NCBI GenBank assembly: GCA_035998445.1 | Contig: DASYHQ010000033.1 | Location: forward strand, 1 to 64,000 | DNA: 64,000 nucleotides | Direction: 5' to 3' | Source: Tepidisphaeraceae bacterium | GTDB taxonomy: Bacteria; Planctomycetota; Phycisphaerae; Tepidisphaerales; Tepidisphaeraceae | Shown: one piece after another, positions 15,531 through 61,006 of the stretch | How the letters are laid out: every line of letters begins with the position of its first letter | Numbering within the stretch: position 1 is the stretch's first letter | Position numbers and translations under genes: made by a program | Notes under the pieces: generated by a model | Told to the model about the DNA's origin: nothing | Database searches by the model: none | The model's input: only the letters and a program-made list of their open reading frames with translations

Positions 15531-15612
15531 GTCATCCTGAGGTATTCCAGAGGGTCTCTTTCTTCCCGCGGCGAGTACGGGGGGAGTTCCTTCCGAGTAC
15601 CTCAGGATGACG
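15531..15612. repeat. Palindrome family B (GTCATCCTGAGGTA)
   Basis: Arms GTCATCCTGAGGTATTCC and the complementary GAGTACCTCAGGATGAC enclose a C/T-rich loop. This uninterrupted copy shows the form of the hairpin that is split by MITE-like insertions at 18285 and 52012. Another copy is at 54514-54600. Confidence 0.85.
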
Positions 15613-17382: not shown

Positions 17383-18237
17383 ATGGCATTGAAGACGTTG
17401 ACGGAGCCCCCGCGCTTGCCGAAACGCCCGCGCGAGGGGCACAAGGGGTCGTTCGGGCGCGTGCTGGTGGTGGGCGGGAACGACGCGATGATCGGCGCGC
17501 CGGCGCTGGCGGGTTTATCGGCCCTGCGCATGGGGGCGGGGCTGGTGCAGGTCGCGACGCCGCGCGCGTCGCTGCTGGCAGTGTTATCGGTCGTGCCGGA
17601 ACTGGTGGGGCTGCCACTGGGCGAGCGCGACGATAAGCGGCGCTTGCGCGACGCCGCCGACGCCGCCGACGCATTGGTGATCGGGCCGGGCATGGGTCAG
17701 CTGGCGGACGCGAAGGGGCACGTCCTGGCGCTGCTTCGTCACGACAAGCCGGCCGTGCTGGATGCGGATGCGCTGAACATCCTAGCGGCCGGTAAGGCGT
17801 GGCCGCGCGATGTGAAGGTGCGCGCGGTGCTGACGCCGCACCCCGGCGAGATGAAGCGCCTCGGCCGGCTGATCGACGTCACCGACGTGCCCACCGACGA
17901 TGCCGCCCGCGCCGCCATCGCCAGCAAAGCGGCGACCGCGTTCGGGCAGGTCGTGCTGCTGAAGGGGCATCGCACGGTCATCAGCGATGGTCGGCGCGTG
18001 TACGTCAACCGCACGGGCAACAGCGCGCTGTCGAAGGCGGGCACCGGTGACGTGCTCAGCGGGCTGATCGGCGCGCTGCTGGCGATCGGCACCGATCCGT
18101 TCGACGCTGCGTGCTTAGGGGCGCACCTGCATGGGCTGGCGGGGGAGATTGCGGGAAAGAAGCTCGGGCTGCGCAGCGTGCTGGCGCGCGATGTGGTGGA
18201 TTGTCTTTCGCAAGCGATCGCTCGTATGGGAAAGTGA
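17383..18237 (+). CDS. nnrD: ADP-dependent (S)-NAD(P)H-hydrate dehydratase
   Basis: 284 residues. It repairs hydrated NAD(P)H. Typical features are GHKGSFGRVLVVGGNDAMIG near the N-terminus, ALVIGPGMGQ, AVLDADALNILA, AVLTPHPGEMKRL and NSALSKAGTGDVLSGLIGAL (nucleotide-binding glycine-rich loop with catalytic Asp). The N-terminal epimerase domain (NnrE) seen in some bacteria is absent, so this is the dehydratase alone. It is divergent from the phosphatase gene. Confidence 0.92.
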   Translation: MALKTLTEPPRLPKRPREGHKGSFGRVLVVGGNDAMIGAPALAGLSALRMGAGLVQVATPRASLLAVLSVVPELVGLPLGERDDKRRLRDAADAADALVIGPGMGQLADAKGHVLALLRHDKPAVLDADALNILAAGKAWPRDVKVRAVLTPHPGEMKRLGRLIDVTDVPTDDAARAAIASKAATAFGQVVLLKGHRTVISDGRRVYVNRTGNSALSKAGTGDVLSGLIGALLAIGTDPFDAACLGAHLHGLAGEIAGKKLGLRSVLARDVVDCLSQAIARMGK

Positions 18238-18274
18238 ACATTTCTCACGGCGCGTATGCATTCTGCGCACCACC

Positions 18275-18530
18275 GTCATCCTGAGAGGGTGTTAAAGAAC
18301 GACGCCGCGTCCGCTCCGACCGTGGCATGGGCGTCTCGCCCATGCGTGTGGTGAGGCCGCAAGGCAAAATTGGTTGCAGCGGCTTGGTCGGCACAGCGGC
18401 CAACAAAAAAAGCTTCTCATTCCAGTCCACACGCATGGGCGAGACGCCCATGCCACGGCCAAGGCAGCCGCGACCGTGTTCTTTGACACCCTCTGAGGTA
18501 GATCCTTCGGAGTACCTCAGGCTGACGAGC
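18275..18530. repeat. Family B hairpin split by a MITE-like insertion
   Basis: GTCATCCTGA (18275-18284) on the left and TGAGGTAGATCCTTCGGAGT continuing to CAGGCTGACGAGC (18494-18530) on the right are the two sides of a family B palindrome. They are separated by the element at 18285-18493. The TGA at 18282-18284 is duplicated at 18494-18496. Confidence 0.75.
18285..18493. mobile_element. MITE-like element copy 1 (209 bp, GAGGGTGT ends, TGA target duplication)
   Basis: Terminal inverted repeats begin GAGGGTGTTAAAGAAC (left) and GAGGGTGTCAAAGAAC (right, read inward). They lead into inner arms with CCGTGGCATGGGCGTCTCGC on both sides. No coding capacity. Directly repeated TGA flanks suggest a 3-bp target duplication. 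A second copy (52012-52219) shares ends, inner arms and the central GGTTGCAGCsGCTTGGTCGG region. The TNA duplication and GAG ends recall non-autonomous derivatives of IS5-family (IS1031 group) elements; that link is inferred. No transposase is in the window. Confidence 0.8.
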
Positions 18531-18706
18531 TTGAACAGTGTTACGCTCAGTACAGATTTCCGTTCCTCACTGTCCACTTCCTTCCCAGATCGCGTTGGTC
18601 CACTTGAGATTGCTTCGGCCGTTCATTCGTCACCCGGCATCGGCTACCGTAACATTAGCGCCGCCCGTGGGTGGTATAGGGACGGGCCTCTTGCTGGAGA
18701 ATCGAT

Positions 18707-24675: not shown

Positions 24676-25086
24676 ATGCCCGAACCCGACGATCACTCGC
24701 TCCCGTTCACGCTCCGCCAACGGCGGGCGGTGCTGGGCATCTTCTCGCTGGTCTCGATCTACCTGATCTTCCTCAGCATACGCGACCGCCGATACGTGCC
24801 CGACCCCTTGCCGGCCGAGTCGTCGCTGGCCTCGCAGCTGGCTGATCGAATCGACCCGAACACCGCCGACATCGCGACGTTGTCCGCGCTGCCGGGACTA
24901 GGCGAGAAGCGGGCGGCCGTGATCATCGCGTTTCGTGAGAAGGTTCAGCAACGTGAACCGGGCACAACCGTCTTCAATTCGCCGTACGATCTGCTGAAGG
25001 TCCGCGGCATCGGCATCGCGATGCTGGCCAACCTTCAGCCCTACCTGATTTTCCCAGAACCGCCCGCGACGCAGCCGTCGCGTTAG
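24676..25086 (+). CDS. ComEA-like helix-hairpin-helix protein with membrane anchor
   Basis: 136 residues. One N-terminal transmembrane helix (AVLGIFSLVSIYLIFLSI) precedes a linker and a tandem helix-hairpin-helix domain: IDPNTADIATLSALPGLGEK, RAAVIIAFRE, then SPYDLLKVRGIGIAMLANLQ. Such domains bind duplex DNA without sequence specificity. ComEA acts in DNA uptake through type IV pili, which fits the pilus locus 5 kb away, but no ComEC is present. The TAG stop uses the first base of the repeat element beginning at 25086. Confidence 0.8.
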   Translation: MPEPDDHSLPFTLRQRRAVLGIFSLVSIYLIFLSIRDRRYVPDPLPAESSLASQLADRIDPNTADIATLSALPGLGEKRAAVIIAFREKVQQREPGTTVFNSPYDLLKVRGIGIAMLANLQPYLIFPEPPATQPSR

Positions 25087-25345
25087 AGGGTGTCAGTAAC
25101 GCGGCGGCGTCCGCTCTTCACGTAGCATGGGCATCTTGCCCATGGCGTCGGTCCGCCGACGCGTCGGATGGTACGCCATCCGAATCAGCAATCGCGCCAG
25201 CGAAACATCGTCTGGAATCATCGAACGAGCAGATCGCTTGCGCTCTTTAGCTCGGGCCGAGAACGGCCCGACACCGCGGGGTACCGCGGCTCCACGGGCA
25301 AGATGCCCGTGCTACGTGAAGAGCGGACGCGGCCGTTTAGCATCT
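25086..25345. mobile_element. Divergent third member of the GAGGGTGT element family
   Basis: The left end GAGGGTGTCAGTAACGCGG, then GCGTCCGCTCTTCACGTAGC, matches the layout of the elements at 18285 and 52012. The right arm GCTACGTGAAGAGCGGACGC is complementary to the left, but the right terminus (to about 25345) has lost the GAGGGTGT motif. The middle differs from copies 1 and 2. It fills most of the 343-bp gap before uvrB, where no gene is seen. Confidence 0.55.
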
Positions 25346-44373: not shown

Positions 44374-45437
44374 TCACGCGCCGCGTGCTTCTGCAGCCAT
44401 TTCGGGCGGCATGGGATCGCGCGGCCGATCTGCGGGCCGACCGAGGAACACCCTCGCCAGTAGTGGAAACCGGTTCGCCGCCACGCCAAGTTCCAGGAAG
44501 CCGAACGAGAAGACCACCGCTGCGATTGGCGCGATTACCAACGAAAACCAAAGGCTTCCATTGAGCGCGTGCGTGCCGTCCCATGCGGCCCCCTGCAGGG
44601 TGAAGATGTAGATCTGCAGGATGTAGACGTACAGGCTGCCCTGCCCAAGCCGCACAAGGTCGCGTTGGGGCGTCACCTTGTACAGCAGGAACATTAGGGC
44701 CAGCGCCGTCAGGCTGGAGATCGCGCCCGCCAGGTATCGGAACAGCACCACCGGGCCGTTGCCGTCGGTCAGCGCCATCTTCGAAAGGTAGACGTACGTG
44801 CGCTCGGTCCACATCGCGTAGCAGACGCCCGACGCCACCAGTCCTACCGAGGCGATCAGCACCGGTCGGTACAGGAACCGCAACCGACCTTCGTACCTGG
44901 CGAAGAAGTACCCAATGATGAAGTAGGGCAACACGTACTTGAACAGCGTCGGTGCCGGCACGCCCAGCGCAAGCACCGCCACGGCAATTCCATAGATCGG
45001 CTTGTCGAGGCGGAAATGTCGCATAATCGCGAATCCGATCGCGGTGCCGAACAGTGCCCACAGGAACCACAGGTCGCGGGTGAGGCCGAAGACGAAGGTC
45101 TTCAGCAGGCCGCTTGCCCCCGGCGGCGCATCGCGGGTGATCATCCACATCAAAATGTGAAACGGTATCGCCCAGGCGAAGATCGGCACGATCAGCCCGT
45201 TGAAGCGCTTGGCGAAGGTCGTCGTCATGCTATCGCGGTTGATGGGCCGGTACGCCACGTAGCCGCTGATGGCCATGAACAGCGGCATGTGGAACATGTA
45301 GATAAGCTTGAATACCGGGTCGCCCCAGTACCCATTTCCCAAATGCCCAGCCCACTGGATGATGTGTCCCCACGTCACCAGGATGATGAGGATGCCTTGG
45401 CGTAATCCAAGAACGAGTTGCGATTAACCGTAGTCAT
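44374..45437 (-). pseudogene. Acyltransferase-3 family membrane protein with a 1-bp frameshift near its start
   Basis: The main frame (to 44374) encodes an OafA/fucose-acetylase-like acyltransferase with about ten membrane helices: VTWGHIIQWAGHLGNGYWGD with the catalytic-type His in WGH, FHMPLFMAISGYVAY, YFIIGYFFARYEGRLRFLYR. It opens mid-domain. The missing start, MTTVNRNSFLDYAK from ATG 45435-45437 with GGGGA upstream, lies in another frame. A single base missing near 45394-45398 (AAGGC where AAGGGC would restore LDYAKGILIILVTWGH) would rejoin them. It may be a true mutation or an assembly error. Confidence 0.8.
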
Positions 45438-51855: not shown

Positions 51856-51881
51856 GTACCACGGGCGGCCCGCCCGTGTCT
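51856..51881. repeat. Short family A-type palindrome
   Basis: CGTACCACGGGCGGCCCGCC, then CGTG; only one side of the paired family A layout is present here, directly after the rplU terminator. Confidence 0.5.
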
Positions 51882-51933
51882 CTGGTTCGCCAAACTAAGT
51901 TTCCCCTGCAGGCTCATCTGTTAGGCTGCAGAT

Positions 51934-52230
51934 TCGTCATCCTGACGTACTCGGAAGGACCTCTTCCTTCCCGAAGTAAAGGCGGAGTGGGAGATCCTTC
52001 GGAGTACATCAGAGGGTGTTAAGGAATAGTGCCGCGTCCGCTCCGACCGTGGCATGGGCGTCTCGCCCATGCGTGTGTTGTGACCAGAAAACAGTATTGG
52101 TTGCAGCCGCTTGGTCGGCGCAGCGGCCAACAAATGAAGCTTCTCATTCCAGTCCACAGGCATGGGCGAGACGCCCATGCCACGGCAAGGCAGCCGCGGC
52201 ACTGTTCTTTAACACCCTCTCAGGTTGACG
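51934..52230. repeat. Family B hairpin split by a MITE-like insertion
   Basis: TCGTCATCCTGACGTACTCG at the left and GATCCTTCGGAGTACATCA just before 52012 belong to one family B palindrome. Its last part, TCAGGTTGACGA, continues after the element at 52220. TCA at 52009-52011 is repeated at 52220-52222. This and the elements around it occupy the 570-bp gap between rplU and rhaB. Confidence 0.75.
52012..52219. mobile_element. MITE-like element copy 2 (208 bp, GAGGGTGT ends, TCA target duplication)
   Basis: Ends GAGGGTGTTAAGGAA (left) and GAGGGTGTTAAAGAAC (right, read inward), inner arms with CCGTGGCATGGGCGTCTCGC, and a central GGTTGCAGCCGCTTGGTCGG stretch like copy 1 at 18285. Flanked by directly repeated TCA. 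Both copies are inserted at the CTGAGG/CCTCAG site of a family B hairpin; TCA here is the complement of the TGA in copy 1. No coding capacity. Confidence 0.8.
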
Positions 52231-52308
52231 ATGTTGCGCGAACACTGCATGCGAACTGGAAACACGGGTATCGCCCATGGTACGGCAGACTCGAAACCCA
52301 CCCGGCAC

Positions 52309-54513: not shown

Positions 54514-54600
54514 TCGTCATCCTGGGGCACACCGAAGGATCTCTTTCGTCCCACGTACAAATACGGGGGGAGATCCTTCGGAGTACCTCAGGATGACGAG
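54514..54600. repeat. Palindrome family B (uninterrupted copy)
   Basis: TCGTCATCCTGGGGCACACC and GGAGTACCTCAGGATGACGA arms, with inner GAAGGATCT / AGATCCTTC. It separates the EVE and YlbF-like genes and shows an intact CCTCAGG site of the kind hit by the MITE-like elements. Confidence 0.85.
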
Positions 54601-60265: not shown

Positions 60266-61006
60266 ATGTCTACCGTTCAAGAACAACTCGACCTCGACGC
60301 GCTCAACACGATGTTCGAGTCGGCCGACCACGTGAAGATCGTCGAATGGTCGGCGGCGCAGTTCGGCGACGAGCTGGTGATGTCTTCGTCGTTCGGGGCC
60401 GAGTCGGCGATGCTCATCCACATGGCGATACAGCATCGGCCGAGCATCCGCATCATCTTCACGGACACCGGCTATCTGTTCCCGCAGACGTTCGCGCATC
60501 TGGAAGCGCTGCGCAAGCGGTTCAATTTGAACGTCTGGACCTACCGCACGCACAACGATCCGATCGCCTACCTGCAGGCCGCCGGCGAGACGGACTTCAC
60601 CTGGCGCAAGGACATCGACGCCTGCTGCGCCGTCAATAAGAACGAACCGTTCGACCGGGCGATGAAGGAACTGGCCCCGAAGGCGTGGCTGCGCGGCATT
60701 CGGCGGAACCAGGCCGACACGCGCAAGGCCCGGCAGTTCATCGAATGGAGCCCGCGCTACAACTGCCACGCGATCAGCCCGCTGTTGAACTGGTCGACGA
60801 GGGACATCTACGGCTATATGAAGCGGCACGACCTGCCGTACCACCCACTGTACGAAGAAGGGTACCTGTCGATCGGCTGCAACCCGCTCAGCTGCACGCG
60901 ACCCGTGATGGCCGGTGACGACCCGCGGTCGGGCCGCTGGGCCGGTTCGGGCAAGGTCGAGTGCGGTCTGAACGTCGACGTGACGCCACCGGCGGCGCGG
61001 CCGTGA
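60266..61006 (+). CDS. cysH: Phosphoadenylyl/adenylyl-sulfate reductase (CysH)
   Basis: 246 residues. SSSFGAESAMLIHMA is the nucleotide P-loop, FTDTGYLFPQT the substrate loop, and ECGLN (Cys233) the catalytic motif. Cys120-Cys121 and Cys205...Cys210 look like the four [4Fe-4S] ligands of APS reductases, but the second pair reads SIGCNPLSCTRP (C-x4-C) instead of the usual C-x2-C. Cluster-bearing enzymes usually prefer APS, yet cysC is adjacent, so use of PAPS or both is open. Confidence 0.92.
   Translation: MSTVQEQLDLDALNTMFESADHVKIVEWSAAQFGDELVMSSSFGAESAMLIHMAIQHRPSIRIIFTDTGYLFPQTFAHLEALRKRFNLNVWTYRTHNDPIAYLQAAGETDFTWRKDIDACCAVNKNEPFDRAMKELAPKAWLRGIRRNQADTRKARQFIEWSPRYNCHAISPLLNWSTRDIYGYMKRHDLPYHPLYEEGYLSIGCNPLSCTRPVMAGDDPRSGRWAGSGKVECGLNVDVTPPAARP

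Follow-up and report, generated by a model that had tools for sequence, protein, structure and literature searches.

Short inverted-repeat elements occupy a fixed point in a dispersed hairpin repeat of a Tepidisphaeraceae bacterium

The genome of the Tepidisphaeraceae bacterium analysed here contains a family of MITEs whose insertions are nearly confined to a single point, GTCATCCTGA^G, of a dispersed repeat (repeat B). The family was very probably placed at this point of the arm sequence of B by an IS1031-group transposase acting in trans, although the genome as assembled shows no partner IS. The elements are MITEs in that they are short, contain no transposase, have terminal inverted repeats and a target duplication, and are present in many copies. 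The analysis started from the window, a stretch of 64,000 nucleotides (positions 1 to 64,000 of contig DASYHQ010000033.1, assembly GCA_035998445.1; contig C33 in our numbering), and was extended to the whole genome (5.84 Mb in 64 contigs, 95.5% complete).

Results

A first-pass annotation of the window had described two elements of 209 and 208 bp with common ends and inner arms, and their positions proved exact (copy 1, 18285-18493; copy 2, 52012-52219; neither they nor their duplications are assigned a strand). Both copies start with GAGGGTGTTA and end with ACACCCTC, giving perfect GAGGGTGT terminal inverted repeats, both contain two inverted hairpins of the CATGGGCGTCTCGCCCATG type, and they are 89% identical to each other. 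The ends of copy 1 are GAGGGTGTTAAAGAAC and GTTCTTTGACACCCTC, and its inner hairpins, which belong to a dispersed repeat (repeat A), lie at 18326-18344 (plus strand) and, inverted, at 18434-18452 (minus strand). The insertion points in B are CCTGA^GG for copy 1 and CCTCA^GG for copy 2, and the TGA..TGA and TCA..TCA flanks that the annotation had placed at CCTGAGG/CCTCAGG of a B hairpin were confirmed in both cases. Copy 1 has the flanks CATCCTGA..TGAGGTA; the outer left arm of its host hairpin, GTCATCCTGA (18275-18284, plus strand), ends with the left TGA (18282-18284), and the remainder of this short hairpin, TGAGGTAGATCCTTCGGAGTACCTCAGGCTGAC (18494-18526, plus strand), begins with the right TGA (18494-18496). 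Copy 2 has the flanks TACATCA..TCAGGTTGAC; its host hairpin runs on the plus strand up to the insertion point (51936-52011), with the left TCA at 52009-52011, and continues in the outer right arm TCAGGTTGAC (52220-52229, plus strand), with the right TCA at 52220-52222.

When each element was removed together with one copy of its 3-bp duplication, the joined flanks folded into a hairpin (z = -6.2 for copy 1 and -5.9 for copy 2, compared with -13.2 for an intact B copy). Uninterrupted B hairpins, i.e. in-genome empty sites, lie in the window at 15531-15611 and 54516-54597 (both plus strand). Both copies are intergenic by eye, and our own crude gene caller assigned 38 coding bases to the region around copy 1 (18200-18600) and none to that around copy 2 (51880-52300). 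The predicted neighbours are NAD(P)HX-dehydratase-like and M16-peptidase-like genes for copy 1, and a dehydratase-like fatty-acid gene and a rhamnulokinase-like gene for copy 2. The window also contains a third, decayed relative of a 267-bp type (25086-25344, no strand assigned), in which the left end GAGGGTGTCA is intact after TTA, the right end is degraded and the site is not B.

A genome-wide search for the 16-base end with at most two mismatches gave 60 matches, compared with 2 for the reversed control, and perfect 8-base end pairs 178-208 bases apart were found at eight loci, compared with none for the control. Flanks were examined in 2.39 Mb of sequence, made up of 2.0 Mb in six whole or nearly whole contigs and 0.38 Mb around further ends. 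Within this sequence a perfect 3-bp duplication flanks 21 two-ended copies and is TGA or TCA in every case, so that the 3-bp TNA duplication proposed from the two window copies is supported genome-wide. The CTA..TAG flanks of the IS5-family CTAG target with its TA duplication were not found at these copies, the flanks being TGA/TCA. At B sites a 3-bp TNA duplication with GAGGGTGT ends is indistinguishable from a 5-bp CTNAG duplication with AGGGTGT ends; a single non-B copy, at C18:545144, favours TNA (CTCAG versus CTCAC).

B arms host 20 of the 21 duplication-bearing copies, leaving one outside B, and a duplication occurs at just one of the 31 end pairs that lack B flanks (C18:545144-545410, TCA). 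In the six contigs of the 2.0 Mb, 12 of 13 duplication-bearing copies are in B, a preference with P = 1e-5 relative to intergenic CCTSAGG sites and 3e-11 relative to intergenic CTNAG sites; both values are approximate because the gene mask behind them comes from our own crude hexamer caller, and they allow only in part for purifying selection against insertions in genes. The intergenic bias of the copies may be partly due to selection. There are 39 B arm pairs in the 2.0 Mb, most of them without interruption, and as B is intact and mostly uninterrupted it is older than the insertions.

The annotation had also proposed that palindromes are targeted. The fixed point in B bears this out, but the hairpin proved needless. 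An inverted partner arm lies 33-76 bp away in 16 of the 20 duplication-bearing B insertions of this genome, which would fit a transposase that reads B by its folded shape (cruciform or hairpin) and not by its sequence. We consider such structure recognition unlikely, because the other four insertions have no partner arm, and neither have any of the five ends in Taibaiella soli (described below) whose flank would contain one. In addition, the insertion point lies within the arm, off the palindrome axis, and the other hairpin families of the genome were not seen to host GAGGGTGT ends regularly. The four single-arm cases in this genome may have lost their partner through decay after insertion. 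As four of 20 insertions here and all five testable ends in Taibaiella lack the partner, the arm sequence is sufficient, and the results support the correction that the target is the repeat-arm sequence, with no requirement for a hairpin or cruciform.

Roughly eight copies have the symmetric form GTCATCCTGA..TCAGGATGAC, with TGA on the left and TCA on the right, a combination that is not producible by a single insertion. Such copies would be natural if the element and its B arms were one compound palindromic repeat, i.e. an extended form of B, comparable to a REP/REPIN doublet, that is copied whole and whose inner part never transposed; the presence of B arms on nearly every copy with ends and the abundance of REP-like hairpins in the genome also fit this. 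However, in most copies one B arm is split in a hairpin that is complete apart from this, and 3 bp are duplicated in comparison with intact B. Different bodies have the ends and the site in common, one TCA-duplicated copy is outside B, and an autonomous IS with the same ends and target exists in Taibaiella. The compound repeat is therefore largely refuted, and we regard it as very improbable. As to the symmetric copies, we suggest that two insertions, one on either arm of a single hairpin, underwent homologous recombination, which would yield TGA..TCA with both trinucleotides kept exactly. The locus C18:489288-489829 resembles a decayed double insertion in one hairpin. The segment C52:230065-231483, considered as a single 1.4-kb element, was rejected, since each of two B hairpins there holds a MITE of its own.

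At least two unrelated bodies, E1 and E2, have these ends and this insertion site in common. E1, the main type, is 209 or 267-270 bp long with hairpins CATGGGCG, and E2 is 170-172 bp long with ends GAGGGTGTTTATTAAG and hairpins CCCTCTCCC..GGGAGAGGG. The core hairpins of E1 also stand free elsewhere in the genome as repeat A: a profile search for the element core found 128 non-overlapping loci in 2.0 Mb, only a few dozen of which have GAGGGTGT ends, the rest consisting of nothing but the two inner hairpins and breaking off sharply at CCGTGGCATGGGCG and CGCCCATGCCACGG. Since unrelated bodies lie behind the same ends and the E1 core also occurs alone, the mobile unit is defined by its ends and target and the middle is replaceable, i.e. 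the body is interchangeable hairpin-repeat cargo.

Bodies made of hairpins, in a genome encoding eight Y1_Tnp matches, could also have been mobilised by a RAYT (Y1/HUH, TnpA-REP), as in REPINs. This seems extremely improbable to us, as B arms are found at no Y1 locus, and a GAGGGTGT end with a core-like hairpin occurs within 1.5 kb of only one. HUH single-strand transposition is not known to make a target duplication, whereas the 21 copies described above have one. The elements thus show neither hallmark of REPIN/RAYT systems, namely a repeat-flanked Y1 gene and the lack of a target duplication.

Repeat A (CCGTGGCATGGGCG..CGCCCATGCCACGG) was also seen at the centre of other inverted repeats, of types CACAGAGG and CCAAGGACG, on six contigs (e.g. 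C17:128255 and C26:179957), as if hairpin repeats nested generally. B arms enclosing a GAGGGTGT element also form part of a larger inverted-repeat unit, the arms of which are ATACGRATCGTGATTAA and which is present at C41:127087; near-identical units with these arms lie at the ends of contigs C26, C35, C58 and C64 (L123, L183, L186 and L190), where they probably broke the assembly.

No transposase gene with GAGGGTGT ends was found among the PF13340, PF01609 and NF033580 loci examined in this genome (assembly 95.5% complete) or among the fetched loci of the window's family, and a plasmid blastn search with the element as query gave no match. The DUF4096, DDE_Tnp_1 and Y1 loci of the genome were rejected as donors on their mismatched ends, as was a multicopy IS split over C13 and C23, the ends of which are ACGGACATTCATYC.

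A contig scan for TCATCCTGAGAGGGTGTTWA gave two matches, both in Taibaiella soli (Bacteroidota). The genome of this organism has nine exact GAGGGTGTTTAAAAAG ends, one pair of which bounds a complete 869-bp IS with a TGA/TGA duplication and a transposase of ~260 aa (PF13340 + PF01609; NCBIfam NF033580, IS5). The IS with matching ends that the annotation had suggested looking for was therefore found, but in Taibaiella soli and not in the bacterium's own genome as assembled. The first nine bases, GAGGGTGTT, are identical between the window elements and the ends of the Taibaiella IS. All nine Taibaiella ends adjoin CTGA or CTCA of GTCAYNCTGAGCGNAGNCGAAG-type repeats, and a search of the Taibaiella soli genome for CTGAGCGNAGNCGAAG with at most one mismatch gave 218 matches, compared with 2 for the control. 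Sequence comparison of the Taibaiella target repeat with B revealed GTCATCCTGAG and CGAAGG in common, and the position within the repeat is fixed in Taibaiella too, where the target repeat is a single arm. The suggestion that the window elements are non-autonomous relatives of IS1031-type (IS5-family) elements is thus supported by the GAGGGTGTT ends, TGA duplication and homologous target of this IS.

Relatives were also found elsewhere. Another genus of the window's family (genome G035) has 144-151 bp elements with ends GAGGGTGTTAAGGAAC and yet another hairpin body, flanked by TGA/TGA or TCA/TCA and hosted by B-like hairpins, and GAG ends together with TCA or TAA duplications are seen in relatives that carry ISRl2 and ISRm4-1 annotations. 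The planctomycete-side transposases most like that of Taibaiella were rejected as donors. One of them, L235 (G165:C72), from the same phylum, is 42% identical to the Taibaiella transposase and has GAGGGTGTCTG inverted repeats, but its flanks, TAA and TGA, mismatch; the others have GAGCCTG or GAGCGTGTTATG ends.

Discussion

We propose that an IS1031-group (IS5-family) DDE transposase, which would cut TNA and recognise the sequence of the repeat arm without need of a cruciform, mobilised the copies in trans. B would serve as a harmless intergenic landing site, the partner IS may have been lost from the genome or may lie in its unassembled part, and the MITE family would now be decaying. Because the search of the own genome gave no transposase with these ends, we infer the donor across phyla, from the Taibaiella soli sequence.

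IS1031-group elements generate 3-bp TNA repeats (PMC12016507), and the duplications of the ISRl2- and ISRm4-1-type elements observed here agree with this rule. The window elements resemble this group (IS1031; ISLrh in PMC12016507; ISRl2 and ISRm4-1) in their GA(G/A)-type ends and TNA duplication, and the same-ended Taibaiella element has an IS5-type DDE transposase; they differ in lacking a transposase, in being confined to one dispersed repeat and in their end sequence (GAGGGTGTT, compared with GAACCTGTC in ISLrh and GAGCCTGAC in ISRl2). Several IS are known to insert into REPs, i.e. IS621, IS1397, ISPa11, ISPpu9/10 and ISRm22 (Tobes and Pareja 2006, PMC1525189). Such targeting is documented for IS3, IS110, IS4 and IS256 elements, but for IS5 there is association only, the IS5-family ISNm1106 lying near REPs and not inside them (PMC1525189). 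The MITEs described here resemble REP-targeting IS in entering a dispersed extragenic palindrome at a set position and are a variant of this known behaviour, but they are non-autonomous, come from another phylum and have a 3-bp TNA duplication, and their target is a hairpin of ~80 bp or a single arm as opposed to a REP of 20-40 bp. Like other bacterial MITEs (Correia elements, QMITE2 and Chunjie; PMC10969869) they are short and mostly intergenic, with terminal inverted repeats, a target duplication and decayed copies, but here one set of ends encloses several unrelated dispersed hairpins, and the target of insertion is a repeat too. We found no report of MITEs fixed to one point of a REP-like repeat in the literature searched, which lay largely outside subscription journals, and the papers listed for the B repeat sequence were all unrelated.

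A broader proposal, plausible although we lean slightly towards doubt, is that a branch of the IS1031 type in at least two phyla has specialised, via sequence recognition, on GTCATCCTGAG-N7-CGAAGGATCT as a safe landing site, and that its MITEs swap in dispersed hairpin repeats as cargo, which would make repeats of different origin nest and spread together. The GTCATCCTGAG..CGAAGGATCT repeat is a little-studied intergenic repeat, here seen in two phyla and tied to one transposon group that would use it as a landing site. This provides a concrete sequence-specific target for IS5-family transposition, and a natural way in which palindromic repeats with no relation to each other could become nested, i.e. 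a MITE enters one and carries another.

A second MITE family, of 158-160 bp, was also observed. It has ends GAGCGTGTTATGCACTTT, mostly CTA..TAG flanks and a body consisting of an inverted GGCTTGGAGTACCAAACCGTGGCACCCA repeat, and its loci in genome G000 are C18:600272-600431, C35:57411-57569, C41:3897-4056, 44457-44614, 60782-60940 and 207230-207387, C61:180864-181022 and C64:49686-49844. Nearly the same ends are present on IS5-type transposase loci of other genomes (L267, L241 and L247).
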